Assembly (NCBI RefSeq): GCF_012849555.1
Contig: NZ_CP051685.1
Span: 1,116,001-1,180,000, forward strand
From: Massilia forsythiae
GTDB taxonomy: Bacteria > Pseudomonadota > Gammaproteobacteria > Burkholderiales > Burkholderiaceae_D
Direction: 5' to 3'
Length of the DNA stretch: 64,000 nucleotides
Below the pieces are notes generated by a model. The model made no database searches, had not been told where the DNA came from, and saw only the letters and a program-made list of their open reading frames with translations. A program made the translations under genes and the position numbers. Of this stretch, positions 43,962 to 63,500 are shown piece by piece (position 1 is the first letter of the stretch; the number at the start of each line of letters is the position of its first letter).

Positions 43962-44992
43962 CTATAGAGTGGCCCCATCAGTCAAGACACTCAGCCGGCT
44001 AGTTAAAGCTGTGTCCGTTTCCACTTCAGCAGCTGCCTGGCGCTGCCCCGTACTGCCGATTTTTTCTTGCTCCACGTCCGTGTCGCCGAACTTATCGACG
44101 ATCAGCGCGCCGCCTCCGATACCGGCGCGATAGACGTGATCCAGCGTCTTATATCCCAACGCCTGATGCGGTCGCTCGGCGTTGTAGAACGCAAAGTATT
44201 GCACCAGGTCGACTGTCAGTCCGGGCATGTTGGCATAGCCCTTCAGGTACACGTCTTCGTACTTCACGTTGCGCCACAAGCGCTCGACGAAGATGTTGTC
44301 CAGCGCCCGCCCGCGCCCGTCCATGCTGATCGCCACACCTTCGCGCTTGAGCACGCCGGTAAAGGCGTCGCTGGTGAACTGCGAGCCCTGGTCGCTGTTG
44401 AATACATCCGGCCTGCCGTAGTGGCGCAGCGAATCTTCCAGGCAGTCCACGCAGAACGACGCGTCCATGCTGTTGCTGATGCGCCAGGCCAGCACTCGGC
44501 GCAAGTATCAGTCGATGATCACCACCAGGTAGGCAAAGCCACTCGCCAGGCGGATATAGGTTAGATCCGTACTCCACACCTGGTTCGGCCGCGTGATCGC
44601 CACCCCGCGCAACAGGTATGGATAGACCTTGTGCTGCGGATGCGGCTTGCTCGTCGCCGGCCCCGGCGCCATGCCCGCCAGACCCATTTCCTGCATCAAG
44701 CGCTGCACGCGCTTGCGATTGAGCTAGTGCCCTCGACCTCGCAGGAATACTGCCATGCGCCGGCTACCGTAGAACGGCCGGCTGGTGTATTCCTCGTCGA
44801 TCAGGGCGCGCAGTCGGTCGTCTTCCTCGTTTATGCATGCCTGGCGTGTTACCGCTTCCAGCCGCCGATACACCGTCGAACGCGGCACGCCGGCCAGCTC
44901 GCATTGCATCGTCAGCGGCATCTCGTCTTCCCGTGCAATCCACCGTGCCCGCTCGGCAGGACTCATTCCCCAAGCTTTTTTTTGAGCCAATC
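43962..44992 (-). pseudogene. IS3-family OrfB (DDE integrase) with two premature stops
   Basis: The frame continues after -1 slippage as KKAWGMSPAERARWI and has the usual HTH_21 part (ELAGVPRSTVYRRLEA) and integrase core (NQVWSTDLTYIRLASGFAYL, FNSDQGSQFTSDAFTGVLKR, FVERLWRNVKYEDVYLKGYA). TAG at about 44723 (before LNRKRVQRLM) and TGA at about 44507 (in place of the usual Trp after VVIID) break it. The last codons run across the left inverted repeat into flanking DNA. Confidence 0.85.
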
Positions 44993-45312
44993 CACCTGCA
45001 TCTTCAGCTTGCCGATCTCGCTGTACAGCTTGTCCTCGGCACTGCTTTCGTCCACCGGCTTCGGCCCGCGCTTGACGTCGAACAGCGCGCCGGCGTTCTC
45101 CAGAATCTCCTTCTTCCACTGCGTCACCAACTGCGGATGCACGTCGTGCTCCTGCGCGATCTCGTTGATCGTCTTCACCCCGCGCACCGCTTCCAGCCCG
45201 ATCTTGCCCTTGAACTCCGCACTGTGCACCCTGCGTTTTTTACCTTCACTCATTCGCTGTCATCCTTTCGCGGACGACAGCTTAAACCACTGTCTCAAAT
45301 TCAGGGGCCACT
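43968..45312 (-). mobile_element. IS3-family insertion sequence
   Basis: About 1345 bases bounded by AGTGGCCCC and GGGGCCACT. It contains orfA and orfB in the usual overlapping order with an A9G slippery run. orfB carries two in-frame stops, so the copy is probably inactive. A clear target duplication is not visible at the ends I chose, so the outer bases are approximate. Confidence 0.85.
44963..45253 (-). CDS. IS3-family OrfA (HTH transposase subunit)
   Basis: 96 residues. The helix-turn-helix domain reads RRVHSAEFKGKIGLEAVRGV, INEIAQEHDVHPQLVTQWKK; a leucine-zipper-like end reads SEIGKLKMQVDWLKKKLGE. The run of nine A followed by G near 44977-44986 encodes the KKK and is the expected site of programmed -1 frameshifting into OrfB. 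OrfA itself looks intact. Confidence 0.9.
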   Translation of the reverse strand: MSEGKKRRVHSAEFKGKIGLEAVRGVKTINEIAQEHDVHPQLVTQWKKEILENAGALFDVKRGPKPVDESSAEDKLYSEIGKLKMQVDWLKKKLGE

Positions 45313-45353: not shown

Positions 45354-45932
45354 CTATTCGAACCCACATTTTCTAGCAGCAGATATTACTTGCTGCAGCT
45401 TTTGCAAATTAATCCCTGCTGTTCGCTTTTCGATGCAGCTTTGTAAATCATGGAATCCAATTAAATTATTGGGGGTCACATCAGCAGCAAATGGAAATTT
45501 AAAATATTCCCCACTAGGCGGCCTAAATTCGAAGAGTGCGAATACTATCGTATTCCTCTTCCTCCCAAATGAAAGTTTTTTTAGACTGACTGCTGGATTA
45601 CCAGTACACTCCCATGTCGATTCAGTTCTAGCAGAAGTAAACAATATTATCCCTGATTTATTATTTATACCATAGTAAAGAAAACATTCCATTTTTGATG
45701 AACCATCTCGCCGCAGTGCAGACCCGGCAGAAATATATTCCCCCGTTTCTTTGTCCTTAAATGATTGATTTTTAAATTGACTAAAAATCAAATTCGGAAA
45801 CTTCTGAATTTGGTTGACATAATTGCCTTGCGAAACCAACTCAGAATCTGACACTGGGACCAGTTGCGCATGCGCGGAGCAATGTGCATAAAACAAAAAT
45901 ATAAAAACACTCTTAATTTTTATACTTCTCAT
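45354..45932 (-). CDS. Secreted protein, predicted immunity to the muramidase toxin
   Basis: 192 residues. A Sec signal peptide (SVFIFLFYAHCSAHAQ, cleavage after AHA) makes it periplasmic. The mature protein is soluble, with Cys residues in KMECFLYYG, STWECTGNP, LQSCIEKR and ARKCGFE that could form two disulfides. No family recognised. ATG at 45932 overlaps the end of the giant RHS gene by 20 bases and has its own strong GAGAGAGG site. A muramidase acts in the periplasm, so a periplasmic partner encoded just behind it fits an immunity protein. The DNA is much AT-richer than the RHS core. The IS5-type element ends about three bases beyond its stop. Confidence 0.75.
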   Translation of the reverse strand: MRSIKIKSVFIFLFYAHCSAHAQLVPVSDSELVSQGNYVNQIQKFPNLIFSQFKNQSFKDKETGEYISAGSALRRDGSSKMECFLYYGINNKSGIILFTSARTESTWECTGNPAVSLKKLSFGRKRNTIVFALFEFRPPSGEYFKFPFAADVTPNNLIGFHDLQSCIEKRTAGINLQKLQQVISAARKCGFE

Positions 45933-48900
45933 ATGCCTCTCTCATTTTATTATCATAGTTGTTTTCCCGATAATTAGGTCCGTTATACTTTCGCGCAAAA
46001 ACGGACCAATCTTTTTCTCGCAAAGCATTGAGGAGACCCCGATCACTTCCCACAAAATCTGCAAATGCTTTCAATTGAACATCCGCACCCTGACGTTGTG
46101 AATCTACAAAATCCGTTACCGAATTATATCCCGCCGCTCGGTAATTTGCTCCCATGATTTGAAACTGTCCCCAAGAAGTAGATTTTAAAGCTGCCGTATT
46201 GTCTAGCGCAAATGCTATATCTAGCTTCCTGTACTGATTATCGCCACTGGCACCATACCCACCAGAAATTGAATTCGAAATTTCTGGATTTGAAGCATCG
46301 AAAACTCCATTTGTAAGTCGATGAAAGTAGTGACGTTCAAAAAGGATTTTTGGCCTACCATCGCTAAAGAATCCATTACCTTTACTTTCAACCTCAGCGA
46401 CGGCTTTAATAGCAGCCACCTCAACATTAAGCTTTCGTGCTGCATTTGCAAAAGCCGCCTCACTCACGTTTATTTGAGGCTTAGTAGGAGGTATTGCAAC
46501 TGCGCGCACATTTAGCTGCCCTACTGGCGTCACTTGTCGAGAGGCGGCAGTTGTTTTCCTACTGGAGCGCGAAGTTGGCGCGCTTCGCCCATAATCTGGC
46601 ATTGAACTCCGCATTTGCTGTTTATACCATGCCTCCTGGTCCTCTATAGACAGTCGCTTTCCGACTACAATCACTCTTTGACTGGTTAGGTCTTCAACTG
46701 ATATTTCTGGCCTTGAAAGAAATTCTCCTGCCTTCGGCAAGACACCACCATTGCTGTCAGCAGCGCTTTCCAATGCTTTTAATTCTTCATCTGTAGCAAA
46801 ATCAGCGCGAGCATCAGTTCCATATTCAGCTAATCTTGCCCGTAACTGACCGTACTCGTTCTCGGAAAATTTAGAATTATTTAAAAATGCTGTTTGGTTT
46901 CCGTTTGAAATTTGATTTTTATTTGGATCGCGTCTCGCTTCAAAATTAGAAGCCAACACGTTTCCAAAAACATCAATCGCAATCGACTGCGACGACACCT
47001 TTCCGCCACTTGCAAACGTCCCCAATGTTTGACCAGCAGTTTGCGAAATTATTGAACGGTATACCTTATCGGTACCCGACAGCAGCTGACTATCGAACAA
47101 GCTCCTGCCCACGCCAGCGGAAATCGCCGATCCGAGCACGCTCTTCCATTGGAAGCCCTTCTGCAAGTTCAGCGCAATGCCAACGGCTTGCGAACTCGCA
47201 TTGGCAATGGCCGCATTTTTAGCCACATCCCACCAGTCGCCACCCACTTTGGCATTCAACCCGCCGCTTACCGCTGCCCCGACTGCACTGGTAAAGACCT
47301 CGCCCCAGCTGAACGAATCGCGAACGCCGAGGTCGATGGCGATGGCCTGGCCGGCGATGCTGCCGGCAGCGGCACCGATACCTAACGATGCAGCGGCGGC
47401 ACCCGTACTACCCAGTATGCTGCTGAGCCAGGCGCCGCCGCCGCCCAGCCAGCTGGTTGCCAATCCCTGGGTCGCGAACGTTACCGCAAGCGTCACCGCA
47501 ATGATGACGAGCTTGCTGCCGCAACTCGCATCCGACCTGGCTGGCAATGGCAAGGTCGGCGTCGTACTGCCGATCGCGTCGCTCGGATTATACGGCGTGA
47601 ACGTGTCCGCATCGTTGTGCACCACGTTGGCCCGTGCCGGCAGCCTCAGCGTCTGGCCTATGGTCAACGGCGAGTCGACCTCGAGGTTGTTGGCGTTCGC
47701 GATCAGGTACCACAGGTTGGCGTCGCCCCAGACCGACTTGGCGATCGACTTCAGGTTTTCGCCACCCTGCACGTGGTAGATGCTCGGCGAGGCCAGGTTG
47801 GCGCCCGTGGTCGCGGACTGGTAGGCGTTCGCGAAGTTGCTCGGATCGGCCTCGTCGCTGTTGGAGCCGAGTACCTCGCCGTTGACGATCAGCGTGCGCA
47901 CCATCTCGCCGGACTGGGTCGACATCAGTACCCGGCCCTCGGCATCGTTGATGTAGGTGCGGTCCTTACCCGGTGCGCTGGTGTCGACCACTTTCACGAC
48001 ATTGCCGTTTGCGTCGAGCGTCGTGGTGGTGTACTCGGGCTTGCCGTTAATCGAACCCCTGACCTGTATCTCCTTCGCGGAATCGAAGTAGGCATACGTG
48101 TTGAAGTAGATCGAATGCTGTCGCCCGGTGCCGTCGTCATGCGGATGCACGACGGCGTAGCCAATCGGATTGCCGGCGCCATCATAGCCACCCTCCGCAC
48201 CATTGGCGAGGTAGTAAATATCGTCCAGGAAATCGTGGTTCAAGGCCCAGAATTTCAGGCGCTGGAGTTCGCCCCCTTTGGTGTAGTGATAGGTCCTGTA
48301 CTCGCCGGCGATGCCGAAACTCTTCAGCCGATCGTTGTTGGTCCCTTCGGGTGGGCCGCTCCGGATAACGCGGCCGAACTCGTCGTAGTAACGGCGGTCG
48401 ATGACGATGCCGTCGCGCGTGACCTGGGACAGGCGTCCGGTGTCGTCTTCGTACTGGTACCTCTCGGTCGTCGGCAGGTATGGCCCGCCCTTCTGCGCGT
48501 CCTTGTACATGTAGCTGTCGGTCTCGCGCCGGCCGAAACCGTCATAAGTGATCACGTGCCCCTTGTCGCCCATGACGATGTTGCCGTTGACGTTGATGCC
48601 GTTCGCGACGACTTCGCGGTTCATCTCGTCGTACTTGTTCCAGGCATCGCTGTCCACCGCCCTGCCACTGCTGTCGACATAGTGCGTCGCCACATGCAGG
48701 CGATTGCCGTTGTCGTCGTAGCCGATGTCGACGGTAAAATGCCCGTCCTCGACGTGCTCCATGCGGCCGTACTGGTCGTAGCGGATGGTATTGTTCTGCA
48801 CGAGCAGCGGACCGCCCTCGGCATTGCGCGCCAGCGCCTTCTCGGTCACGCGGTTGCCGGTAAGATCGTAGGTATACGTGGTCAAGAGTCCGGTAGCATG

Positions 48901-51900
48901 GTCGTCGATCGTCGTCAGCAGGCCATGGTCGTAGGTGTAAACGATGTTCTGCGCGCCGCTGCCCTGACGCGCGGTCGACCATTGGTGGATCAGGTGGCCC
49001 TGGCCATCGTACTCGTAGCGGATCTGGGCGCCCCCCTGGTCCACGTGGCCCACCACGCGGCCGAAGGCATCGACATTCCACGTCATCGACTTGCCGGCGC
49101 CGTCCACCTCGGCGACCTTGTGGCCATAGGCATCGTAGACCGACCTGGTCTGGCGGCCGGCGTTGTCGATCTGGGCAACGACGTTGCCGGCGAGGTCGTA
49201 GCGCGTCAGGCTCGAGATCACTTCATGGATTTTGTCGGATTGTCCTCCCGCATTAGCGGGATACTTCTGCGTAGAGGTGGCATAGCGCCGGCCGAGCTCG
49301 TCGTACGCAAATTCTTCGCGGACTTCCCAATTGCCAGGGTTGAGCAGGGCTGTCATTCCGCCGCCATCGCTTTGATCGACGGTGTAATACACATGCGAGG
49401 AATAACGCGACGACGAGGCCAGGTTACCCATGTGATCGTATGTATACAGCGTCGCATAGCCATCCCTGGCCTGCAGCGAGGTCCGCTCCCCGAATGCGTT
49501 CACCGCATACGATTCTCCGCTGCCGTCGGCGAAGCGCGTCGTCGACAGGCCGAACCCGAAATATCCCGTGAAGGTGAGGTTGCCGTTGGCATCGCGGTTG
49601 CCGGTGGCGCGCCCCATCTCGTCGTAGTAATTCAGCTCGCTCGAACGCACGGTCGGTACGCCACCATTCATCAGCACAACCGATTTCTCGGTCTGCTGAT
49701 TGAAGCTGTTGTAGCTGTAGGTGATGCGCCAGTCGAGGTTGCGCGGGTCGGTCACTTCGACCACGTTGCCCCAACGGTCGTACTTGACGTGGCTGGTCGG
49801 CGTGCGCATGGCAACCGAGTCTGGCTGTCCTTCCGCAAGCTTGACGGTGCCGTCCACGCGCGCCGCGTCCAGGTGCAGTACCGCGCGGTCCATCAGGTCG
49901 TAACGGGTCTCGACCACGTCGACGCCCTTTACCTCGAGATACGGTGTGGACAATGCGTCGTGCACGTCCTTGGCACTGGTGTACAGGCGCAGGTCATCCA
50001 GGGTGCCTCCGGCATGGTCGGTGCCGGTCGCCTGCTGCGTCAGGTTGCCGCGGATGTCGTAGAACATCACCTTGGTAATGCCGTCGCCGGCATTGGTGTG
50101 CCACACGTTGCCCGCGTTGTCGTACTCGGCGAATTCGTACACGTTGCCGTTCATGCTGCGCGACGTCACCTCGCCGAAGGCGTTGTAGGTCAGCGACTGC
50201 ACGTTGCGTCCGATGTCGGCCGGCGCCTTGTCCACGATGGTCGACGACAGCGGCGCGACGCTGCCGTCGAAGTCCTGGCGCAATTCCCATTCGCCGTTGG
50301 CGTTCTGGACATAGACCTTCACGCGCTGGACCGACTTGATGCCGCCGCCCACCTGGTCGTTTTCCGACCAGATCAGCGTGGCGCCGCCATCGGTGCGCTG
50401 CAGCGGCAACTCTCCTTCCGCAGCCGGATAGCTGAAGGTCTTCTGGGCCGGGTCACCCGGCTTCACGCCGTTTGGAATCCAGATCGGCTTGAAGCCGTCC
50501 AGGCCGAGCTTGAATTGCGGGTTGTCGGCCTGCGTGTAATCCACAACCACACGAATCGGCGCATTGCCGGTGTCCGGGAATCGCACGCTGATGGTATTGG
50601 TGCCGGTGAAGATCGATTTGGTCTGCGACGGATCGAACGATCCGGGTGCCGATTCGACCGATGCCACGCCTACTGCCGGCAACGGCATCGCATTCGTGCT
50701 GCCCGGCGTGGTCACCGACGTCATCTGGCCGGTGGCGTCGTAGTGGAACAGCTTGTAGCTGGTGAGCGTGACCGCGCTGGTCGCGGAACTGCGGTCGGTC
50801 ACGGTCTGCCATTCCTTGGCCAGCCTGCCGGCCGCGTCGTAGGAGCGCCGCGTGATGTTGAGGTTACCGTCGGTGACGGCCAGCGCGTTCCCCATCAGGT
50901 CGTAGGTCGTACTCGTGGTGCGGTCGTCGGCGCTGGCCAGCATCGGCGAGCTGGCGCCGTCGTACAGGGCCTGGTACTTGGCGTGGGCGATCTGCGTCAG
51001 CACGTTGCCGTAGGCATCGCGCACGAAGTCGGTGACGATCCAGACGCGGTTCGGGTCGTTCGGATTCTCGGGATCGTAGGGTGGCGTAGGGGTCGGCTGA
51101 GGCTCAGGGTCCGGCAGCGGCTCGGGCCTGAGGATGATCTGCGAGCGGCCGACGCCGTCGTTGCGGCTGGCGACCCGCGTCACGCGGCCGACCGCGTCGT
51201 AGAAGCTGAGGACCGTGTTCCCCAGCGGATCCGTGGTCGAGGTCAGGTTGCCGACACCGTCGTACTCATAGCTCGTGACCAGCGTGTCGCGCAGGGCCGA
51301 ATAGTTGCCGTCCCAGGTGAAGTTGTCGAACGCCGTGTTCACCTGCAGTTGGGCTTGCTTGCGGTCGTTCAGGTCGTACTCGTACCTGGTGTCGCGGTCG
51401 CTCTCGGTCAACGCCGGCGATTCCGGATTCATGTCGTACAGCCCATCTTCCGGCCCGCGCGGATCCCTGCTGCGTTGCGCGTATTCGTAGGTGCGGGTCA
51501 GGTTGCCGAACGCATCGTATTCCATGCGCGTCAGGTAGCCGCCGCTGTCGGTCGCGACCTTGTCTTCGTAATTGTGGGCCAGGCGGTTGCTGTTCTCGGT
51601 GTCGGCAAGGACGAATTCCGCCGTCTTTTCGCCGCGCCGGTTGTAGTACATGCGGGTGACGGCGGCTTCGCCGAGCTGCTCGCCGTCCCTGAAGTCGCCG
51701 CGTACGCCGTAGACTTTCTTCGCGGTGACATCGCCGAAGGCGTCGTAGTCGAAGCTGGTTACCTTGCGCAGCTCGGCGTAGCCCATCCAGGTTTCGTCGT
51801 TGCCATAGCCGCCGACGGCGGTGTAGTTGTAGGTGGCCGCTTCGGCGACCTTGATCTTGCGGCCGAGCCCGTCGTACTGCGTATCCACCGCCCGGTCCAG

Positions 51901-54900
51901 GATGCTGGCGTGCAGCTCGACGGCGCTGCGCATGGTCGCCAGCGAGAAATCGGTCACCGGTCCGTAGCCGACGGGGTTGGCGGGCATGTTGCGCTTGGCG
52001 CGCAGCTCCAGGTTGAGGTCGTCGTCATCGCCGCGGTCGATGGCGCGTCCGGCCAGGAAATCCAGCACGGCCTGGGCGCGCGACGAGGCGTTCTCCGCCG
52101 CGCCCGTCCACCACTGCAGGTCCTGGCCGGGCTCGCGTCCGAGCGCATGCTCGCTCAGGAGCGTGACCAGGGCAGCACCATCCATGTCTTGCGGATACAG
52201 CGCGCGGCCCTCCGTGCCATCCATCAGTACGTGCACCAGGCCGGCTTCGCTGCCGCCGGATGCCAGGTAGGTCATGCCGTCCGCCAGCTCGGCGGCGCTC
52301 GGCGCCCTGCCCAGCACGGCCGTGTAGATCAGGCTGATGCGGTAGCGCTGCGAGCTCAACATCTGCGGATGCAGGTAGTCCTCGACCTTGTTGACGAAGA
52401 AATCCTGGTCGCGTTGCGTCGGTGCCTCGCCGATCATGCGCACGAGCAGCTGGCCGCGGGTCACGCCCTCGGCGCTGCCGATATTGGTCCAGTAGGTGGT
52501 CTCGGCCTCGGACGGGGCGCGTCCGAACGCCGTATCGAAGATGCGCGCCACATAGTCGGGCAAGCTCATGCCCGGCAGGTTGAAGAACGCCGATTCCTTG
52601 GATTTGAGAATCGTGTCGGCGACCTGTGCCAGGGTCTGGCCCTGTTTCAGGAACTGCAGCCAGTAGTTCAAGCCGCCGCCATCCGGCGCGCGGTTGTACA
52701 TCGTCACATACAGCTTGCCGATGTCTTCCTTGGCCGCCTTGTCGGGATCGGCCAGGGCATTCAGCCCCTCGGCATAGCGCGTCAACTTCTCGACGCCGCC
52801 GAAGGCATCGTACTCGTAGCCGGTGACGTTCTGGAGCGCGTCGATCTCGAACACGACCCGGCCGAGCACGTCGTACACCTTGCGGCTGACGTTGCCGTTG
52901 GCGTCGGTGCCTTCGACGGCGTTGCCGAGCGCGTCGTAGGTGACGGTGGTGAAAGGCGCCACATGGATGACGTGATAATCGGCGTCGGCGGCCGACAGCG
53001 GATCCGAGGCCGGATCGTAGACGGCGGTCAGCGGCAGCGTGGTCCTGACCTGGCGTCCCACCAGGTCGTAGCCGTAGCTGGTGGTGCGCGGATGCGGCCC
53101 GCCATAGCCTTCGGTGCGCGAGGTCATGCGCCCCATCGCGTCGTACGCCATGTGCGTCTCGACCTCCACCATTCCGATAATGCCTTGCTCGTTGGGCACC
53201 AGCACCGCCGGCGCCCGTTCCACCAGCAGGCGGCCGGCCGCGTCGTACGCGTAGGTCCAGGTCGCGCCGTTGCGGTTGGTATAGCTGGCCTTGCGGCCGA
53301 GCGCGTCGTAGGTGTACGTCTCGGCCTTGCCCATGGCGTCGACGCTGGTGACGAGGTTGCCCTGGTTGTCGTACTGCGACTGGGTGCGGCGGGTCTGCGG
53401 ATCGCTGGTATCGACCAGGCCGAGCACGTCGGCGACCGAGGCGTCGTCGCCCACCACGATCTGGGTGGCGTAGCGGATGCTGTCCGACACCAGGCCCAGG
53501 CCGTTGTAGCGCGTCTCCGTGACGTAGCCTTCGGGATCGATGCTCAGGCGCGGCAGGCCGTCGGCGCCATACACCGTGCGGTGGACGCGGTAGTCGGCTT
53601 CGTTGTTGGCGTTGTCGACCTGGCGTACCAGATGGCCGGCGCCGTCGTAGACATACGACGTGGCGACGCCCACGGCGTTGGTCATCACGGCGACGCGGTT
53701 GGCCGCATCGTAGTCGTAGTAGGTGACGCGGTCGCCTTCCGGGTTCCAGGGTTGCCCATAATGGCTTTCGAGCGCGGCCAGCACGGCCTCGCGCGTCACC
53801 GCGCCGCTCAGGCGGACCGGGTTGGCGTAGGCGATTTCGGCGAGCACGTTGCCGGCGCCGTCGTACTCGCGGCGCACGACGCCGCCGAGGGCGTCGATCG
53901 TGATGTTGAGGCGGTTGACGCTGTCGTAGACGTAGCGGGTGGTACTGTCGCGCGTGCCGTCGACGGCCACGCCGGCCAGCCATTCCTGCATCTGGCCGTC
54001 GGAAAGCGTGCCTTGCGCCGGCGCGCCGCCCAGGAAGTTGGCGTAGCTGGTACGTGCAAGAACGTTACCGTCCGCATCGAACTCCTGGCGCGTGACCGAC
54101 CACAGCAGGGTATTAGCATCACCGCGCTGCGCCGTCGCCGACGCCACCAGGCGGCCGGCGGCGTCGTAGCGCATGCGTACGCGCGCATCGTTGCCGTAGC
54201 TGGCCGGCACCGTCGCCAGCCATGCGACGACCTGCGCCTGGGTGGCGTCCGGCGCCAGGCCGGCATCCGACAGGTGGGTCACGTAGTCGGTGCGGTCGAT
54301 CACCCGGCCGGCGCCGTCGTAGGCCTGGGTGCTGACCGACCAGTAGGACGCGTCCTCGTCGCCGTACTGCTTGACTGCGCTGGCGACCAGGCGGCCGGCG
54401 CCGTCGTAGACCATGCGCTTGGCAGCCACCGTTCCAGTTTCCGGCGATCCGGTAATGCTGGCGATGACGTTGAAGTTGCCGTCGTAGGTGTAGGTGGTGA
54501 CGCCGCCGGCGGCGTTGGTCTGCTGCGCGACCCGGCCGCGCACGTCGTAGGTGTAGGAGACCGAGACTTCGCCGCTACCGCCGGCAGGCACCCATGCGCG
54601 CACCGCGGCGTCGGTCAGGGCGACTTCCGGCGGCAGCAAGTTGGAATACTGCGTGGTCTCGGCCAGGCGGCCATTGCCGTCGTAGCGCTGCTGCGTGAAG
54701 CTGCGGTCGCCCTCGACGGTGAAATGCAGGCGCCCGTCCTGGTCGTACAGGTAGGTGGTGACGTTGTCGCGGCTCGGGTCCGGCGCCAGGTGTTCCTGGA
54801 CGGTGGCCAGGTCGAGACGAACGCCGTCGTCGACGAACTGCGCCACGGTCGCGCCCACCAGCGGGCGCGCGTAGCGCGTCACCGAGGCGATGCGATCGCT

Positions 54901-57900
54901 GCCCTGCTCGTAGGTGTACACGGTCACGTCGCCGGCGGCATCGACCTCGCCGACCTTGCGGCCGTCGGCATCGTACATGTAGTGCGTGACGTTGCCCTTG
55001 GCGTCGTAGCTGCGGAACGGCGCGGTACCGAGATCATCGTACACATAGATCGTCGTCAGCCGCAGGCCGTCCGGATCGACGATGGTGGCGATGCGCCGGC
55101 CGACGATGTCATACTGGTACTCGGTCACGTGGCCGGCCGGATCGGTCATGCGCAGCACGTGGCCCAGGTTGTCGTAGTCGAAGCTGGTGGTCAATGCCAA
55201 GCCACCCGGCTCGGCGCTGCGCACCGTCGTCTGCACGCGGCCCAGCACGTCGTAGGTGGTGGCCGTCATGACGCCGGTCGGGTCGGTTACGGTCAGGGTG
55301 CGGCCCTGAGTGTCGTAGGTATAGCTGGTGACGAGATTCAGGCCGTCCACGTCGACGGTACGGCGCAGCACGCGGTCGACGCTGTCGTATTCGATCTTCG
55401 TCACGCTGCCGTTGCCGTCGGTCGTGGTCGTCAGGTTGCCGGCAAAATCGTAGGTGTGCGCTTCGCTGACACCGAATTTGTCGCTGACCGACTTGAGGTG
55501 GCCGTCCTGGTCGTAGGCATACGTGGTCTTTTCGCCGTTCAGGTCGATCAATTCGGCGACGTCGCCCTGGGCGGTGCGCACCACCGTATGCACGGCGCCT
55601 TCGGCGGTGGTCACGGTCATGCTGCGCGCCGCGGTGTCGTAGCGGTAGGTGGTGGTACCGCCGGCATTGCTGGTCTCGGTCACAACCCGGTCGAAGGCAT
55701 CGTAGGTGGTGGTGCCGCCGACGCCCTCGGCACTGGTCACGGCGATCTGGCGGCCGAGGCGGTCGTAACGGTAGGTTTCGCCGTCACCGTCGGTGGTTTG
55801 GCTGTAGATGACGCGGCCGAAGGCGTCGCGCGAAATGAAGGACCTGCTCAGCTTGGGCTCGCCGCGCGTGAAGCCGTCATACTGGGACTGCAATTCACCG
55901 CGTACAGTGTAGGTATAGCGGGATTGCGCGATGCGGCCGTCGCCGATGTCGGCTTCGTCGAGCGTCAGCTGGTTGAAACTGTCGTAGCTCAGGGTATGCG
56001 TGCCGTTCTCGTCGCTGCGCGAGGTCATCCTGCCGTCGGCATCGTAGCCGTAGGTGGCCACGTAGTCGTGCGCGCCGTCGCGCAACAGCGCCAGGCGGCT
56101 TTCGATCAGGCCGAATTCGCCGCCCGCCATGCCCGCCAGTTCGGCCTCGCCGATACGCTGTGCATAGCGGGTGACGGTGGCGACCTGGTTGATGGCGTTG
56201 TACTCGCGCCGTTCGACTTCGCCGGCGGCATTGACGGTGGCTGCCAGGCGGCCATCCTTGTCGTAGTAGTAGCGGGTCACGTGACCGTTGGGGTCGGTCA
56301 TCGTGGTGCGGTGGTTGGCCTTGTCGTAGGTGTACCTGGTGGCGTATGCGGTCCACACGGCTTCCTGCTGCGCCGGCGTGGTGACCAGCGCCAGCCGGGC
56401 TGCGCCGACACCGGTCAGCTCCGCCGTCACGCGGCCGAGGGCGTCGTAGCGCACCAAGCCATTGCGCGCGCCATCGCTGTTGTAAGCGGACGTGGTCGAG
56501 GTGCGGTTGCCGACGGCATCGTATTCGTAACGCGTTATCGAACCGTCCACGCCGGTCACGCTGCGCAGATGGTTGAGGGCGTCGTAGGTGTAGGTGATCG
56601 ACTGGCTGCCGGAAGCGTCTTGCGCCAGTACCTGCGCCAACGTGGTCTGGCCGGGCTGGAAAGCGACCCGGTTGGCGTAGCGCACGGTACGGCCGAGATT
56701 GCCCGCCGCGTCGTAGGAACGCACGGTCAGGTAGTTTTCGCCGTCGATCTCGGCGACCAGCTGGCCCTTGGCATCGTATAGGTTGTATTCGTGGATGTCG
56801 TCCGCATGGCTGGCGTCGCCGGCGGCCGGACGGAAGTCGGCCAGCGCCGAGGTCAGGTCCGGCTTTTTCACGAGGCCCGCGTAGCGCACGGTTTCCACCA
56901 GTTGGCCGGCGCCGTCGTAGCGGTATTCCGTCAGGTAGCCCGCCGCGTCGACCTCGCCGGCCGGCTTGCCGTCGTTGGTATAGAAATAGCGCTGCATGCG
57001 GTCGTTCGCACTTGCCGCCGGCGGCACTCCCTTGGGGCTGCCCAAGGCAACGTCGACGGGCGTGTAGCGCTGGATCTCGGCCAGCATGCGGCCGACGCCG
57101 TCGTAGACGGTCGAGGTGACGTTGCCGGCGCCGTCGACGGATTCGGCCAGGCGGCCGGCGGCGTCGTAGAAGCGCCATTCGTGCACGTCCAGCGCGCTGG
57201 ACTGGAGACGCAACTGCTCCGGACGCATGTTGATCAGCCTGGTGCCGCGCAGATTCGCGTCGAGGCGCGTGGCGCGCTGGATCACCTCGCCGAGCTGGCC
57301 CTTGGCGTCGTACTTGTATTCGACCACGCTGCCGTCGCCGTCGATGTCCACCGCCTTGCGCCCCAGGCTGTCGTACAGCGTGAAGTTGCGGTTGCCGTTG
57401 GCATCCTGCACCATGGCCAGCCGGCCTTCGGCATCGTAGGCGTAGTACACCTCGGTGAGGACGGTGGTACCGCTTTTCTCGAGCACGCCGAGGGTGCGAC
57501 CCGACGTATCCAGGATCGTTTCGGTGACGCGTCCATTGGGATAAGTGGTGAAGGTCCGATTGACCGCGACCGTCGCGCCGCTCAGATCCAGGTAGCTGCC
57601 GCCCTGGGCGTAGGTCGTCCTGACGCTATTGGAGCCGGCATCGACCGTGGTCAGCAGGCGGTCCAGGTTGTCGTACGCATACGCCGTGGCATTGCCGTCG
57701 GCGTCGATCTTTTCCAGCAGCCGGCCGGCCTGGTCATAGGTGAAGTGGGTGACCGATTGCATGCCATTGCGGATACCGCTGCCGTCGGCGGCCAGGTCGC
57801 TGTAGGTCGTGGCCGTGGCCACCAGGCCGCGGATGTCGTAGCCGTAATCGGTGCGCACGGCACGGGTCTTGTCGGCGCCGGCTACCCAGCGCGCCAGTTC

Positions 57901-59319
57901 TGCCTCGCTTGGAGCGGCGCCGGTGACGGCGTAGCGGTCCTGCGTATAAGCGATGGCGGCCTGGCGCTGGCCGCGCTGGTCGTAGCGGAATTCCTGGACG
58001 CCCTGGTCGCCATCGACGACGAAACGCAGGTGCTCGTGCGCATCGTAGACATAATAGGTGGTGCTGGCGTCGGCCGGATTGGCGGGCCCTTCGCCGTCGG
58101 GATCGACGTCGCGGAACACGGTTTCGCTTTGCAGCAGGTTGGTCGCGGTATAGGTACGGGTGACGACATGGCCGGTGCTGTCGCGCTCGTAGATGACGTT
58201 ACCGTTGCCATCGTGGCGCTTGACGGTGACGTTGCCGTTCGGTTCGACGATCTTGGTGACGTTGCCCTTGGCGTCGTACTCGAAATACGTGTTGAGGCTG
58301 GCGCCATTGGCACCCGCCATCTCGGTGTGCAGGATCTGGCCGTTGTTGTCGAAGGTGTAGTAGGTGACCGTGCCGTCCTTGTCGGTGACGGTGGTCCGGT
58401 TGCCGGCATAGCTGAACGTGTCGTTCTCGTACTTGCCGTCGCTGACGGTGGCAATGCGGCCGGCATCGTAGGTGAACGTCAGCTTGTTGCCGTCGCTCTG
58501 CTCGATCGTGGCGATGCGCCGGCTGGCGCCGTCATAAGTGTACTTGGTGCTGAATGTGCCTCTGATCGACAGGAAGGTATCGACTTGCGCGAGCCGGCCC
58601 TGGTTGTCGTAAAAATACTCGACACGGTTGGCGGATTCGAGTTCGCCGTCGGCAGTCTCGCGATATGCGACATCGACCGATTGCAGCTCCTTGCCGCTAG
58701 GGCCCCCATACGTGAAGAAGGTGCCGGCGCCGGTGGCATCGGTGACCGAGGCCAGCATGCCGTTCGACTGGTAATTGAAGGCCAGGCGGTTGCCGTCCAG
58801 GTCGACCATCGACAGCAGGCGGCCGCCGTTGGTGCCGTCATACGTTTCAGCGAGGTCGGTCGTGCCGGTTTGCCAGGTCCAGATTTTGGTGCCGGCGTCG
58901 TAGCTGAGCGTGTCGAAGGCTTCGCCGCCGTCGGTGGTGACGTACAGGCGGCGCGTCGCGTCGTAGGTGAAACGGTAGCGCGTATCGTCGCCATCGATGC
59001 GGTCGATGGTGCTGCCGACACTGTTCGGAGCGCCGGACAGGCCGGTCACCTGGCGCGACAGGCCGAGCTTCCAGTTGTCGCCATTGTCGTCGTCGGTCTT
59101 GCCTTGGGAATTGTAGGTGCGACCCACCGCGATGTCGATTCCGACCGCCGCCAGGAAGTCGTCCTGGCGCTGGATCACCAGGTTGCCGTTGCTGGCATTG
59201 ACATACACCGCTTGCCCGTCCTGCCCCTGCAGCGCCTTGCCGGCCATGCCACGCTGTCCCAACAATGCTGCAGAGCCGTTCAACAAACCCAGACCGTTAC
59301 CGCCGACGATTGCTACCAT
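45913..59319 (-). CDS. Giant YD/RHS-repeat polymorphic toxin with C-terminal N-acetylmuramidase domain
   Basis: About 4468 residues; start ATG 59319 with GGGAGAG upstream. No signal peptide, PAAR or transmembrane start; it begins MVAIVGGNGLGLLNGSAALL, then GQAVYVNASNGNLVIQRQDD. Residues about 70-3840 are YD repeats (YDAxGR/YTYDxxGN units). A DUF4214-type segment sits inside them at about 2200-2430 (LYVTMYNRAPDGGGLNYWLQ). A LysM domain follows at about 3845-3895 (HVQGGENLKSIAKSVWGDAN), then an Ala/Gly-rich hydrophobic part (about 3930-4100). The tip (about 4285-4468) is N-acetylmuramidase-like: AAIKAVAEVESKGNGFFSDG with the likely catalytic Glu near 4310, RPKILFERHYFHRLT, and LKSTSWGQFQIMGANYRAAG. 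The classical Rhs core ending DPxGL is missing. It would cut peptidoglycan of rivals; the export route is unknown. Confidence 0.9.
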   Translation of the reverse strand: MVAIVGGNGLGLLNGSAALLGQRGMAGKALQGQDGQAVYVNASNGNLVIQRQDDFLAAVGIDIAVGRTYNSQGKTDDDNGDNWKLGLSRQVTGLSGAPNSVGSTIDRIDGDDTRYRFTYDATRRLYVTTDGGEAFDTLSYDAGTKIWTWQTGTTDLAETYDGTNGGRLLSMVDLDGNRLAFNYQSNGMLASVTDATGAGTFFTYGGPSGKELQSVDVAYRETADGELESANRVEYFYDNQGRLAQVDTFLSIRGTFSTKYTYDGASRRIATIEQSDGNKLTFTYDAGRIATVSDGKYENDTFSYAGNRTTVTDKDGTVTYYTFDNNGQILHTEMAGANGASLNTYFEYDAKGNVTKIVEPNGNVTVKRHDGNGNVIYERDSTGHVVTRTYTATNLLQSETVFRDVDPDGEGPANPADASTTYYVYDAHEHLRFVVDGDQGVQEFRYDQRGQRQAAIAYTQDRYAVTGAAPSEAELARWVAGADKTRAVRTDYGYDIRGLVATATTYSDLAADGSGIRNGMQSVTHFTYDQAGRLLEKIDADGNATAYAYDNLDRLLTTVDAGSNSVRTTYAQGGSYLDLSGATVAVNRTFTTYPNGRVTETILDTSGRTLGVLEKSGTTVLTEVYYAYDAEGRLAMVQDANGNRNFTLYDSLGRKAVDIDGDGSVVEYKYDAKGQLGEVIQRATRLDANLRGTRLINMRPEQLRLQSSALDVHEWRFYDAAGRLAESVDGAGNVTSTVYDGVGRMLAEIQRYTPVDVALGSPKGVPPAASANDRMQRYFYTNDGKPAGEVDAAGYLTEYRYDGAGQLVETVRYAGLVKKPDLTSALADFRPAAGDASHADDIHEYNLYDAKGQLVAEIDGENYLTVRSYDAAGNLGRTVRYANRVAFQPGQTTLAQVLAQDASGSQSITYTYDALNHLRSVTGVDGSITRYEYDAVGNRTSTTSAYNSDGARNGLVRYDALGRVTAELTGVGAARLALVTTPAQQEAVWTAYATRYTYDKANHRTTMTDPNGHVTRYYYDKDGRLAATVNAAGEVERREYNAINQVATVTRYAQRIGEAELAGMAGGEFGLIESRLALLRDGAHDYVATYGYDADGRMTSRSDENGTHTLSYDSFNQLTLDEADIGDGRIAQSRYTYTVRGELQSQYDGFTRGEPKLSRSFISRDAFGRVIYSQTTDGDGETYRYDRLGRQIAVTSAEGVGGTTTYDAFDRVVTETSNAGGTTTYRYDTAARSMTVTTAEGAVHTVVRTAQGDVAELIDLNGEKTTYAYDQDGHLKSVSDKFGVSEAHTYDFAGNLTTTTDGNGSVTKIEYDSVDRVLRRTVDVDGLNLVTSYTYDTQGRTLTVTDPTGVMTATTYDVLGRVQTTVRSAEPGGLALTTSFDYDNLGHVLRMTDPAGHVTEYQYDIVGRRIATIVDPDGLRLTTIYVYDDLGTAPFRSYDAKGNVTHYMYDADGRKVGEVDAAGDVTVYTYEQGSDRIASVTRYARPLVGATVAQFVDDGVRLDLATVQEHLAPDPSRDNVTTYLYDQDGRLHFTVEGDRSFTQQRYDGNGRLAETTQYSNLLPPEVALTDAAVRAWVPAGGSGEVSVSYTYDVRGRVAQQTNAAGGVTTYTYDGNFNVIASITGSPETGTVAAKRMVYDGAGRLVASAVKQYGDEDASYWSVSTQAYDGAGRVIDRTDYVTHLSDAGLAPDATQAQVVAWLATVPASYGNDARVRMRYDAAGRLVASATAQRGDANTLLWSVTRQEFDADGNVLARTSYANFLGGAPAQGTLSDGQMQEWLAGVAVDGTRDSTTRYVYDSVNRLNITIDALGGVVRREYDGAGNVLAEIAYANPVRLSGAVTREAVLAALESHYGQPWNPEGDRVTYYDYDAANRVAVMTNAVGVATSYVYDGAGHLVRQVDNANNEADYRVHRTVYGADGLPRLSIDPEGYVTETRYNGLGLVSDSIRYATQIVVGDDASVADVLGLVDTSDPQTRRTQSQYDNQGNLVTSVDAMGKAETYTYDALGRKASYTNRNGATWTYAYDAAGRLLVERAPAVLVPNEQGIIGMVEVETHMAYDAMGRMTSRTEGYGGPHPRTTSYGYDLVGRQVRTTLPLTAVYDPASDPLSAADADYHVIHVAPFTTVTYDALGNAVEGTDANGNVSRKVYDVLGRVVFEIDALQNVTGYEYDAFGGVEKLTRYAEGLNALADPDKAAKEDIGKLYVTMYNRAPDGGGLNYWLQFLKQGQTLAQVADTILKSKESAFFNLPGMSLPDYVARIFDTAFGRAPSEAETTYWTNIGSAEGVTRGQLLVRMIGEAPTQRDQDFFVNKVEDYLHPQMLSSQRYRISLIYTAVLGRAPSAAELADGMTYLASGGSEAGLVHVLMDGTEGRALYPQDMDGAALVTLLSEHALGREPGQDLQWWTGAAENASSRAQAVLDFLAGRAIDRGDDDDLNLELRAKRNMPANPVGYGPVTDFSLATMRSAVELHASILDRAVDTQYDGLGRKIKVAEAATYNYTAVGGYGNDETWMGYAELRKVTSFDYDAFGDVTAKKVYGVRGDFRDGEQLGEAAVTRMYYNRRGEKTAEFVLADTENSNRLAHNYEDKVATDSGGYLTRMEYDAFGNLTRTYEYAQRSRDPRGPEDGLYDMNPESPALTESDRDTRYEYDLNDRKQAQLQVNTAFDNFTWDGNYSALRDTLVTSYEYDGVGNLTSTTDPLGNTVLSFYDAVGRVTRVASRNDGVGRSQIILRPEPLPDPEPQPTPTPPYDPENPNDPNRVWIVTDFVRDAYGNVLTQIAHAKYQALYDGASSPMLASADDRTTSTTYDLMGNALAVTDGNLNITRRSYDAAGRLAKEWQTVTDRSSATSAVTLTSYKLFHYDATGQMTSVTTPGSTNAMPLPAVGVASVESAPGSFDPSQTKSIFTGTNTISVRFPDTGNAPIRVVVDYTQADNPQFKLGLDGFKPIWIPNGVKPGDPAQKTFSYPAAEGELPLQRTDGGATLIWSENDQVGGGIKSVQRVKVYVQNANGEWELRQDFDGSVAPLSSTIVDKAPADIGRNVQSLTYNAFGEVTSRSMNGNVYEFAEYDNAGNVWHTNAGDGITKVMFYDIRGNLTQQATGTDHAGGTLDDLRLYTSAKDVHDALSTPYLEVKGVDVVETRYDLMDRAVLHLDAARVDGTVKLAEGQPDSVAMRTPTSHVKYDRWGNVVEVTDPRNLDWRITYSYNSFNQQTEKSVVLMNGGVPTVRSSELNYYDEMGRATGNRDANGNLTFTGYFGFGLSTTRFADGSGESYAVNAFGERTSLQARDGYATLYTYDHMGNLASSSRYSSHVYYTVDQSDGGGMTALLNPGNWEVREEFAYDELGRRYATSTQKYPANAGGQSDKIHEVISSLTRYDLAGNVVAQIDNAGRQTRSVYDAYGHKVAEVDGAGKSMTWNVDAFGRVVGHVDQGGAQIRYEYDGQGHLIHQWSTARQGSGAQNIVYTYDHGLLTTIDDHATGLLTTYTYDLTGNRVTEKALARNAEGGPLLVQNNTIRYDQYGRMEHVEDGHFTVDIGYDDNGNRLHVATHYVDSSGRAVDSDAWNKYDEMNREVVANGINVNGNIVMGDKGHVITYDGFGRRETDSYMYKDAQKGGPYLPTTERYQYEDDTGRLSQVTRDGIVIDRRYYDEFGRVIRSGPPEGTNNDRLKSFGIAGEYRTYHYTKGGELQRLKFWALNHDFLDDIYYLANGAEGGYDGAGNPIGYAVVHPHDDGTGRQHSIYFNTYAYFDSAKEIQVRGSINGKPEYTTTTLDANGNVVKVVDTSAPGKDRTYINDAEGRVLMSTQSGEMVRTLIVNGEVLGSNSDEADPSNFANAYQSATTGANLASPSIYHVQGGENLKSIAKSVWGDANLWYLIANANNLEVDSPLTIGQTLRLPARANVVHNDADTFTPYNPSDAIGSTTPTLPLPARSDASCGSKLVIIAVTLAVTFATQGLATSWLGGGGAWLSSILGSTGAAAASLGIGAAAGSIAGQAIAIDLGVRDSFSWGEVFTSAVGAAVSGGLNAKVGGDWWDVAKNAAIANASSQAVGIALNLQKGFQWKSVLGSAISAGVGRSLFDSQLLSGTDKVYRSIISQTAGQTLGTFASGGKVSSQSIAIDVFGNVLASNFEARRDPNKNQISNGNQTAFLNNSKFSENEYGQLRARLAEYGTDARADFATDEELKALESAADSNGGVLPKAGEFLSRPEISVEDLTSQRVIVVGKRLSIEDQEAWYKQQMRSSMPDYGRSAPTSRSSRKTTAASRQVTPVGQLNVRAVAIPPTKPQINVSEAAFANAARKLNVEVAAIKAVAEVESKGNGFFSDGRPKILFERHYFHRLTNGVFDASNPEISNSISGGYGASGDNQYRKLDIAFALDNTAALKSTSWGQFQIMGANYRAAGYNSVTDFVDSQRQGADVQLKAFADFVGSDRGLLNALREKDWSVFARKYNGPNYRENNYDNKMREAYEKYKN

Positions 59320-59491
59320 TTGTGACTCTCCCAAGTGCGAACTGACGATTCATGCGGCGCCCGGAGGGGGTGTGCCGCTTACTTGGGAAGGTATCCAGGG
59401 GCTTAGAAATTTGTTTATAGCAAATTGATTTCTTTTTGAAAATTTTCTAATTTTGAATCGCTCCGGCTTTTGTGGATGCCCGCAGTATCAA

Positions 59492-59626
59492 GGGCACCTC
59501 GAAAAACCTGCTGTGCGTTGTATTTTCAGCTTGCGATGCTCTGCTACGGCAGCCCGGCCGTACGCTTGTACGGCTGCGCTTCTCAGCTGAAACTGCTGCC
59601 GCTCGCGACGGTTTTTCGAGGTGCGC
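59492..59626 (+). mobile_element. MITE copy 2 (135 bp) with 5-bp target duplication
   Basis: Terminal inverted repeats GGGCACCTCGAAAAACC and GGTTTTTCGAGGTGCGC, flanked by ATCAA at 59487-59491 and 59627-59631. It matches copy 1 (43224-43342, opposite orientation) apart from an extra 16 or so bases in the centre (TGCTACGGCAGCCCGG). It has no coding capacity and would need a transposase in trans. Confidence 0.85.
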
Positions 59627-59631
59627 ATCAA

Positions 59632-59889: not shown

Positions 59890-60546
59890 TTAAGTCGTAA
59901 TTCCGTAATTTAATGAACCGCATTCCATGCAAGCCATTACATTCAAACTTTTCATATCTCCAATTATCAAAGCTCGCGGCTCTTTTTTTTCATATAGCGG
60001 AATATTCAGATCGTCATAATCAATAGTCGCAAAATATTCTAATTTACCTCCACAACACATGCAATTTTTTAACGGTTGAACTTCGTTTTTTATTTTTTTA
60101 CCTTTTAATTGATGCCTTACTCCACCTAAAATCTCACGCTTTGCATATTTTTCCAAAAATTCCTTTTCATTCCATACGCTTTCAGCTACTGCAACCAGCG
60201 TTACAGCACGGCTCTCAAAAGGGGTATCGATGAAATTGCTTGGTCCATTCCCATCAATATATCCACCAGCAGCAACTCTATTACCATTATCAATTCGAAC
60301 AAAATAATTCTTTAAAGAATGCGAACAAAAAGGGCAAACATCCATTGTGACGTATCCTAACTCATCGTAAAAATTGAGGTCAGGCATGCCATTAATAGAT
60401 TTATGGATGGAAAAAACAGGGAACATTTTTTCACCACAATTTGGGCATTTACACAAGCCCGGTTTTTCCTCATTCAAGCTACCCACATATACTTTATCAT
60501 CATAAGCAGCTTTTTCAGGTTGAATTTCCAAAAAATACCCGACCAT
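59890..60546 (-). CDS. Cys-rich protein, predicted immunity to the second RHS toxin
   Basis: 218 residues, no signal peptide, so cytoplasmic. Two zinc-ribbon-like sets are visible: Cys34/37 (LCKCPNCGEK) with Cys71/74 (VCPFCSH), and Cys162/164/165 (NCMCCGGK) with Cys206/209 (ACMECGS). No family recognised. Its ATG overlaps the stop of the upstream RHS gene as TAATG, so the two are translationally coupled. It is AT-rich like the toxin tip before it. A cytoplasmic partner suits a nuclease toxin. The immunity role is inferred from position. Confidence 0.7.
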   Translation of the reverse strand: MVGYFLEIQPEKAAYDDKVYVGSLNEEKPGLCKCPNCGEKMFPVFSIHKSINGMPDLNFYDELGYVTMDVCPFCSHSLKNYFVRIDNGNRVAAGGYIDGNGPSNFIDTPFESRAVTLVAVAESVWNEKEFLEKYAKREILGGVRHQLKGKKIKNEVQPLKNCMCCGGKLEYFATIDYDDLNIPLYEKKEPRALIIGDMKSLNVMACMECGSLNYGITT

Positions 60547-63500
60547 TATTTTCCTCTACGTGTACCTGGAGTTCTAGTTGGATTCAAAGCATCTTGTCTT
60601 TGTAGCTCCTCACGACTTATTCGAAGCATTTCTTCAGCATCAGCACGTTTAATTCCACCTTTTATCATAGCTTCCACTTGAATTTTTTCCTCAGCCTCTA
60701 AAGTATATACTTTTTGAGTTCTGGCATACTCAGCATTTAACCTTCGTTGCTCAGCAGAAATTGCATCATGATTATATGTTCCGTCATCTGCAACAGCTAC
60801 AGCATTTCTAGGATTATAGTTTTCATTATTACTCCTGCTTGCCTGCTGATGTGGGTGATGGCCTTGAACATCACTGTATGATCCTACCGTATGGGGCCCC
60901 ACCTGTTGGCGCTCGATAATATTGTTAACCGTGATACCTCGATTAACGAGTGCATCTACTCCCTTATTTAATACGGTATCAACAACACTGCCAACAACAT
61001 TCCCAGCAAATCGACCGATCTCATTAGGACCAATTTCAACTTCATATCCATGGACGCTGAAAGAAAAATTCCATTTCTTTCTTTCTGCAAGATCAGTGAC
61101 ATAGTCACGTGCCTGTATCTGAGCGAAAGTTGAAATAGCACCAGTGACATCGCCTACAGCAGATTCTAAACTGACCCTAGCAACCTCCATAGCGACTGTT
61201 TTTACTGGCCCCCCTCCAATAACGGCTTTTATACCAGCGTAGGTAGCAGTTGCAACCAACTGGTGTTCAGAATAGAAATCTGCAAATTCGGAAAGAAGCT
61301 GACTCGCTCCCAAGACGGTTTCAGAAATTATACTTTGGCCGCTTGGCCCAATATACTCGCCATTGATGGTTTCAGAATATCCCTCGCTACGTTGCTCTAT
61401 GGAATCATTTGAAAGTTGATCTAGGCCATGACTAGCAATTGGACTCGAATCATTTCTAAATGCATGAGCTACACGCGAACCGATTTCGCTTTCCGAAAAA
61501 TCACCCGGCGCCGCATCCAAACGACTTATAGGATCTGCCAATGCAACGGTAGCTTGCTGGATTTGCTCAAGTGTGGCTCCTCCTTGTACTGCGCCTTGAA
61601 CAAAGTTAAAAGAAGCTCGATACCTTGGATCTGCGATTGCACGGCCATTTTCGTTAAGTACATAAGGTGTGCCAGAGCGGTTTAACGTATCGATCAGTCT
61701 GCTGTTAGCACGTGATTCTTCAATAGTGGTCGAAATAGACTTACCGAGGGCTGTTCCTAGAGCATTACCAAACGCGTCGGCCACAATCGACTTTAATTCC
61801 AGCTTGCCTCCTGTAGCAACAGTCGCTACAGTCTGACCTGCAGTCTGAGCGATGGTCGATCGTGCAATTTCGTTAATACCGCTCAGCATCCTACTACTGG
61901 CTACGTTGCTGCTTACGCCAGCAGAAATCGCTGATGCCACCACCCCTTTCCAGTCAAAGCGATCCTGCACGCCAACAACTACTCCAACGCCCTGCGATAC
62001 AGCATTTGAGATCGCAGCATTCTTAGCTGCGTCCAAAGGCGAAGATGCCTTACCAAGGCCACCAGTTACTGCATTACCCACTGCGCTGGTGAATACTTCC
62101 CCCCAACTAAAGGAATCACGTACTCCAAGAGCAATACCGGTAACCTGACCGGCGACACTACCCAATGCCCCCGCCACAAAGCTTCCAAGGCCGGAAGTCG
62201 CCCACACGACAGCGATCGAGACCGCTGCCACAATCAATTTCTTAGCGCAGCTCCCCCCCGACTTGGAAGATTGCGCCGGCGGCAACGGCAGCGTCGGACT
62301 CGTATCACCGATCGCCTGTTGCGCGTTGTATGGCGTGAAGGTGCCCGCATCGTTATGCACGACGTTGGCCCGCGGCGGCAGTTTCAGCGTCTGCCCTTCG
62401 GTCAGCACCGAATCCACGTCCAGGTTGTTGGCGTTGGCGATCAGGTACCACAGGTTGGCGTCGCCCCATACCGCCTTGGCGATCGACTTCAGGGTATCGC
62501 CCTGCTGCACGTAGTGGATCGTCGGCGAAGCCAGGTTGGCGCCCGACAGGGCAGACTGGTAGCCATTGGCGAAATTGCTCGGATCGGCCTGGTCGCTGTT
62601 GCTTCCCAATACCTCGCCGTTGACGATCAGCGTGCGTTCGGTCTTGCCGCCCTGGTTCGTGAGCAGTACACGCCCTGCAGCGTCGTTGATGAAAGTGCGG
62701 TTCTTGTTCGTGGCGCTATTGTCGATGACGCCGATGACCGAGCCGTTCGCATCGAGGGTCGTGATGGTGGTCTGCGTTACCTTGTCGATCTTGCCGACCA
62801 CCTGGACTTCTTTCGCCGAATCGAAGTAGGTGTAGGTCGTGGTGTATTCCGAATGCCGGCTCGCGTTACCGAGGCTGTCCGCAGGAACTTGTACGTATTG
62901 GATCAGGTTGCCCGCGCCGTCATAGCCGGCGTTGGGATGGGACTGGATGGGCCTGTAATAGATGTCGTCGAGCTTGTCTGCCTTCAGATTGAATAACTTG
63001 ATGCGATCAACTTTACCGGCGGCGTTGTAGTGATACGTCTTGTAGTTCGTTGGAACACCGAGTTCCTTCATTCTGGATTCACTCTCGTTGCGCTTTGGCC
63101 CGCTCTTTACCACGCGTCCGAATTCGTCGTAGAAGCGTTCCTCGATCACCACGCCGTCGCGCGTCACAGTCGCTAAGCGGCCTAGCGTGTCGTACGCGAA
63201 ACGTTCAGTCGTTGGGACTGTATTATTTTGCGCATTCTTATAGTAGTAAGTATCGGTAGCCCGGCGGCCCAGGCTGTCATACGTGAGGCTGTGTCCCTTC
63301 GACCCCATACTGATACTGCCGTTGGCCTTGATACCGTTCGCGATCACCTCGCGATTCATGGAGTCATACGTGTTCCACACATCGGTATCGACCGCCTGTT
63401 TGTTGCTGTTGACGTAATGGGTCGTAACGCGGGTACGGTTGCCGTTGCTGTCGTACTCCATGTTGACCTTGAAGAAGTCGTCTTCGACCTGGCTCATGCG

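Follow-up and report, generated by a model that had tools for sequence, protein, structure and literature searches.

The stretch of Massilia forsythiae DNA analysed here, 64,000 nucleotides of contig NZ_CP051685.1 (positions 1,116,001 to 1,180,000; hereafter the window), encodes a giant YD/RHS-repeat protein, RHS2, whose C-terminal tip belongs by sequence to the N-acetylmuramidases, and, directly behind it, a 192-residue partner, a candidate immunity protein (Table 1). The start of RHS2 was placed at the ATG at 59319, with relatives matching from Met1 onward, and Pfam recognised 32 RHS_repeat stretches in the protein (E 2.1e-154). With its RHS repeats, fixed N-terminus and variable C-terminal toxin domain, RHS2 has the make-up of a polymorphic RHS/YD toxin. 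The original prediction, made from the letters alone, that the tip fits the pattern of PF11860 phage lysins was borne out by the profile search proposed with it: PF11860 matched residues 4300-4467 over model positions 1-175, its full length (E 1.8e-61, 207.9 bits, cut-off 22.3), and the motifs VAEVES (residue 4307), RPKILFE (4322) and SWGQFQIMG (4382) were in place. PHROGs and solved endolysin structures in the PDB (7q4s, 5nm7 and 7rum; E 8.9e-45 to 8.6e-37) assigned the tip to the muramidases as well. Glu4311 of RHS2 aligned with the catalytic Glu101 of the AP3 endolysin (AP3gp15), whose replacement by Ala lowered activity by 99.4%, according to the accessible part of the report (PMC5674055). 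Taken together, these comparisons confirm, at the level of sequence, that the tip is an N-acetylmuramidase domain with a conserved catalytic Glu. It was the sole PF11860 match found in its own genome.

The partner gene overlaps that of RHS2 by 20 bases (45913-45932), and GAGAGG stands three bases ahead of its ATG, in agreement with the overlap and the separate ribosome site that had been described for it. Signal peptides were judged by home-made rules, the second of which (the stretch must be charge-free) was set after the result of the first was seen; the signal-peptide-like start of the partner was rejected by the first rule and accepted by the second. The mature partner has four cysteines, all kept in its one known relative. 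It had no match above cut-off in Pfam or NCBIfam (best E 0.014 and 0.082, respectively), none in PHROGs and no credible one in the PDB. The partner family looks new, which had been suspected from the outset. Known inhibitors, considered as relatives of the partner, were dropped after PDB and profile searches gave nothing credible. About 100 bases behind the partner lie IS3-type transposase genes (type assigned by eye; window 44400-45250, reverse strand), the second frame of which is interrupted by stops.

The GC (guanine plus cytosine) content is 64.3% in the core of RHS2, 41.2% in its tip and 37.5% in the partner; the tip and the partner are a low-GC cassette. Of 392 family genomes, two contained the partner or a relative of it: that of M. 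forsythiae itself and that of Noviherbaspirillum aerium (G1005; Oxalobacteraceae per NCBI). In the latter, the gene of the partner relative shares 20 bases with the 3' end of a gene for a VgrG protein of 1041 residues, which ends in a PF11860 domain 61% identical to the RHS2 tip; the two partners are 27% identical. Since relatives of the tip and of the partner stand together there as well, though on another carrier, it is the tip that the partner accompanies and not the carrier. This pair, the one further case that the family search for the partner yielded, supports the immunity reading put forward in the original prediction, and the occurrence of the same cassette on two carriers is the strongest evidence that we have for a putative toxin and its immunity protein. 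A different role for the partner, that of an accessory such as a chaperone, an adaptor or an unrelated periplasmic protein, would be compatible with its belonging to no known immunity family and having no usable fold; we consider it improbable, given that the partner goes with the tip upon the change of carrier, and that it looks exported, unlike 20 of the 24 partners of related giants described below.

Other searches for the partner added no further relative. Among 12,200 frames from collected loci, lysin loci included, a profile built from both partners matched these two alone, in their various copies; a search of 61 relatives returned the partner in its own genome only, back-translated patterns found none in genome contigs, and the partner was not found among the plasmids searched. 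For the tip domain, there were 28 PF11860 matches in 22 of 399 order genomes and 9 in 8 of 369 class genomes, the own genome being counted in both. Besides RHS2, PF11860 frames longer than 600 residues were those of G113 (1173 residues) and G468 (905 residues, seen in part), neither of which is an RHS protein. A scan of genome contigs with the tip gave 30 loci. The host frame and the gene that follows it were examined at 17 of these; a frame was obtained at 15, namely the Noviherbaspirillum VgrG and 14 short frames (186-291 residues).

Two features beyond those originally described are a second toxin gene in tandem and a flagellum-like gene cluster upstream of it. The tandem gene, RHS1, lies directly upstream of the RHS2 unit as an open frame of 4333 residues and is 52-66% identical to RHS2 when compared piecewise. 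Its tip had no Pfam match; as the tips of RHS1 and RHS2 are unlike, the two are tandem carriers with different warheads. A LysM domain is present in RHS1 as well (E 2.6e-7). An inverted-repeat element, recognised by eye, is located between the RHS1 partner and the start of RHS2 (window 59490-59630).

Table 1. Features of the RHS2 locus and of the adjacent RHS1 unit (window coordinates).
Feature	Position	Strand	Remarks
RHS2, giant YD/RHS-repeat protein, 4468 aa	45913-59319	(-)	Single open frame; RHS repeats
PF11860 N-acetylmuramidase tip of RHS2	45919-46422	(-)	Assigned by Pfam, PHROGs and PDB endolysins
Partner, 192 aa, immunity candidate	45354-45932	(-)	Signal-peptide-like start; overlaps RHS2 gene
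RHS2 N-terminal 38 residues, candidate export signal	59206-59319	(-)	Start common to 27 relatives and RHS1
LysM domain ahead of RHS2 tip	47638-47778	(-)	Residues 3848-3894; E 3.3e-4, 21.0 bits, cut-off 20.9
DUF4214 insertion in RHS2	52591-52722	(-)	Residues 2200-2243; E 3.6e-15
RHS1, C-terminal part	60546-64000	(-)	Second giant, different tip; frame begins upstream near G000:C1:1189490
RHS1 partner, 218 aa	59890-60546	(-)	35.9% GC; no signal peptide by home-made rule

The N-terminal 140 residues of RHS2 were found in 7 of 62 genus genomes and 36 of 245 family genomes, with weak RHS matches in G882, G987 and G1009 (beginning at residue 34 or later) kept among the 36. Frames with this N-terminus reach 15,898 residues, and some matches lie in short or broken frames. 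We fetched the 3' ends of 40 giants and picked by hand 24 tip-partner pairs, in which the neighbour gene starts from 17 bases before to 20 bases after the end of the giant. Nine of the 24 tips were recognised, eight by Pfam (E 0.05 or better; Ntox50, Ntox15, EC869-like nuclease, PT-HINT twice, ParB_N, SLT and Pesticin) and one by its PDB match to phiKZ gp144 (L187, E 3.7e-8). The Pfam names all fell among the first 20 tips, six of them over the curated cut-off, with ParB_N and one PT-HINT below it; none of the last four tips was credibly named by Pfam. The second signal-peptide rule accepted 4 of the 24 partners, those of L165 (SLT tip), L187 (phiKZ gp144-like), L197 (Pesticin) and L192 (unrecognised tip). 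Thus, an exported-looking partner accompanied 3/3 recognised wall-hydrolase tips versus 1/21 others (Fisher p 0.002), or 4/4 versus 1/22 (p 0.0003) when the two pairs of the window, which do not count as independent evidence here, were added. By PHROGs, none of the remaining 21 tips was assigned to a wall hydrolase. The association of predicted export of the partner with wall-hydrolase tips is therefore supported statistically, and it also backs the immunity reading, more weakly than the N. aerium pair.

The same set of tips bears on whether the muramidase might serve its producer, remodelling the producer's own wall for the passage of the giant while the partner restrains it. Wall hydrolases serve many secretion machines; however, many different tips occupy, by exchange, the position that the muramidase has here, and the nine recognised tips comprise three wall hydrolases and several nuclease or other toxin families, which makes a housekeeping role of this kind highly improbable.

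Several points weigh against a toxin with its own exported immunity protein. The partner family consists of two known members that are only 27% identical, and the predicted structure of the partner was poor (mean predicted local distance difference test score, pLDDT, 43.5), too poor for fold comparison, which was dropped. The LysM match in RHS2 is marginal. The 24 pairs were hand-chosen from 40 ends; the 16 left out comprise three that run off the stretch, four without a frame near the end and nine with a frame by a mechanical rule (L168, L171, L172, L180, L183, L185, L188, L189 and L193; tips outside the scan), none of these nine frames being accepted as exported by the second rule. That rule was altered after its first form had missed the 192-residue partner and the partner of L165, and the first form gives 2/3 wall-hydrolase tips versus 2/21 others (p 0.06). 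The gp144 match was sought after the exported partner had been noticed, and Pfam names alone give 2/2 versus 2/22 (p 0.02); the 20 tips without an exported partner were searched by Pfam and PHROGs only. Finally, L192 combines an exported-looking partner with an unrecognised tip.

A few other ends deserve mention. The L192 partner is membrane- or lipoprotein-like, and its tip is possibly that of another periplasmic toxin. In L183, a further frame with a lipoprotein-like stretch overlaps the end of the giant, whose tip is unrecognised; it stands outside the count and, if real, would raise the number of exported partners beside unrecognised tips by one. L173, L186 and L195, which are among the largest frames (12,451-15,898 residues), end alike as judged by eye and have no partner frame close by; they are perhaps carriers without a warhead.

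We consider the locus to be, with a probability of roughly 85%, a polymorphic toxin-immunity module consisting of a muramidase-tipped giant and an exported immunity protein. The giant YD-repeat protein would be the carrier, its N-terminus constant and its C-terminal warhead open to exchange, and the PF11860 warhead would cut the glycan strands of peptidoglycan in the periplasm of a competitor. The 192-residue protein, predicted to be Sec-exported and probably disulfide-bonded, would wait in the periplasm of the producer and block the enzyme delivered by sister cells. We infer the toxicity of the tip, its direct binding by the partner and the periplasmic location. Passage across the outer membrane of the competitor may involve the LysM domain and a hydrophobic, glycine-rich stretch that precedes the tip.

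As to how such a giant might leave its producer, the N-terminus is a candidate export signal. The RHS2 start, MVAIVGGNGLGL, is in the main common to RHS1 and to 27 relatives read among the 40 upstream stretches fetched; the mean ungapped pairwise identity of the 29 sequences is 0.64 at residues 1-15 and 0.35 at residues 16-38. Judged by eye, the RHS2 start has no Sec-like look. Upstream of RHS1 and outside the window lies the flagellar-type cluster, in which Pfam recognised four FlgE/F/G-type rod/hook proteins, FliF, FliH, a FliI-like ATPase, FlgD, a FliN-like protein, tetratricopeptide-repeat (TPR) proteins, FlhA, FlhB, FlgH, FlgI, FlgA, FliE and a sigma factor, FliA-like by its place; FliP, FliQ and FliR were named by eye. 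By NCBIfam, the cluster FlhA is above the flagellar cut-off and ahead of SctV, and FlhB is below the cut-offs of both kinds. No flagellin, FlgK, FlgL, FliD, FliG or motor gene was recognised in the cluster, a profile search having been made for flagellin only. The genome has three FlhA copies, and the linked copy shares 35-39% identity with the others. A sigma-28-like promoter upstream of the giants was considered and dropped, the pattern used matching in 0 of 29 upstream stretches.

The link between giants and this FlhA extends well beyond M. forsythiae. Among the 245 family genomes (clade threshold E 1e-180 or better, at most four candidates scored per genome), the divergent FlhA clade occurred in 26/36 genomes with the giant N-terminus versus 0/209 without it (p 3e-27, in a test that ignores shared descent; the 26 genomes fall in 13 of 44 genera), and in 26/33 versus 0/212 when the three weak matches were set aside. 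The giant and the FlhA gene lie on one contig in 19 of the 26 genomes and, by frame lengths, within 30 kb of each other in 15. Comparison of 13 stretches with the cluster showed that the order flgF-G-A-H-I-C, fliE-F-I is kept in G957, G977, G1017, G953, G915, G874 and G030; G434 shows the other half of the cluster, flhA and the TPR genes shift place between stretches, the stretch of G906 shows the sigma factor only, and three stretches (two of G1031 and one of G853) gave no cluster match. In G1017 and G915, TPR genes and a 133-residue gene lie directly ahead of the giant. Such genes, as seen just before the giant and on the same strand in L105 (17131-19401) and L130 (16654-19401), are chaperone candidates. 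Flagellin (PF00669) was found in 0/26 genomes within 100 kb of the linked FlhA on the same contig, contig ends limiting this count in drafts; the nearest, in G953, was about 380 kb away, and G853 and G897 had none at all. By this count, the linked cluster is without the nearby flagellin that would mark a motility organelle.

It is about an even chance, judging from these gene patterns, that the flagellum-derived apparatus upstream exports the giant via its N-terminal residues. This reading, still unproven, rests on the association, the N-terminal conservation and the lack of a recognised alternative. The broader proposal is equally balanced: members of this betaproteobacterial family, to which Noviherbaspirillum also belongs, could carry a dedicated flagellum-derived export apparatus, with hook-basal-body and export-gate genes but no filament, for giant polymorphic toxins. 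Its cargo, RHS2 included, would span about 3,000-16,000 residues and be recognised by an N-terminus of about 15 residues, with the TPR proteins as candidate chaperones, a picture to which we give even odds in turn. Ten of the 36 N-terminus-positive genomes are without the FlhA clade at this threshold. They include G305, G829, G835, G857 and G1036, as well as G846 (91% complete) and G848 (98%), which hold two giants each and speak against the link. In G305, the giant frame (L036, L052) stops after 401 residues, with transposase-like frames behind it.

Alternatively, the giant could be delivered by a type VI secretion system (T6SS) encoded in the genome, like PAAR-Rhs effectors, the flagellum-like cluster being a bystander. 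The genome holds three VipB genes, the tip-partner cassette rides on VgrG in Noviherbaspirillum, and a weak match to DUF6531, a domain known from T6SS Rhs proteins, lies at RHS2 residues 40-96 (20.7 bits, below the cut-off of 24.1). However, none of the leaders that define a T6SS Rhs effector, be it PAAR, VgrG or another, was found in the 4468 residues of RHS2 at E 0.1, and the fixed N-terminus of the giants is of another kind than a T6SS leader. Moreover, VipB was matched in 17 of the 26 FlhA-clade genomes, the other nine (several of them drafts), all with the giant N-terminus, having no match. T6SS delivery therefore appears unlikely.

The locus shows that a giant YD-repeat carrier and a type VI spike can bear the same putative muramidase-immunity cassette, adds a new candidate immunity family and suggests a route by which giant polymorphic toxins without a known leader may be exported. 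If the cluster does export the giants, flagella would have been made into an antibacterial weapon separately from injectisomes, and the exit of such giants from Gram-negative cells would become testable with one gene deletion. It is the link of the carrier to a divergent FlhA, rather than the tip, that is the surprise.

The tip itself is not new, as PF11860 warheads with immunity genes have already been described on VgrG. In the accessible part of PMC5361080, effectors of the DUF3380/PF11860 type (I-type), as in VgrG-3 of Vibrio cholerae, are predicted with immunity genes; they share with RHS2 the C-terminal warhead family, a predicted immunity gene of their own and the exchange of tip-immunity modules, but the carrier there is a T6SS spike instead of a giant YD-repeat protein. 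Hence, the view that lysin-tipped YD-repeat toxins are little described stands for the giant carrier and not for the warhead, and the carrier and the partner family are the only parts that look new. Among the matches listed in the open-access literature, there was no RHS/YD-repeat toxin with PF11860 and no flagellar route for such toxins. The AP3 endolysin and other PF11860 lysins have the same catalytic domain with a single catalytic Glu, as far as described in the part of PMC5674055 available, but are phage lysis enzymes, and the lysin loci searched held no gene like that of the partner. WHIX T6SS effectors combine an N-acetylmuramidase end with a periplasmic immunity protein, as proposed for the present pair, on another carrier and with another export domain; as PF11860/DUF3380 is not named for their ends in the available part of PMC12135965, the family may differ. 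With the polymorphic RHS toxins of Zhang et al. (2012), RHS2 shares the fixed N-terminus, the repeat rod, the exchangeable C-terminal toxin domain and a neighbouring gene that is here a candidate for immunity, but it has no recognised export leader of the kinds given in the accessible part of Table 1 of PMC3482391. The closest parallel to the proposed export is offered by Flag-2 loci with Rhs, VgrG or pesticin cargo, where, in the portion of PMC6993521 available, toxins lie inside a secondary flagellar locus and an export role is proposed. In contrast to that cargo, present there in single or few strains, the link described here has no flagellin near it and extends over 13 genera of the sample.
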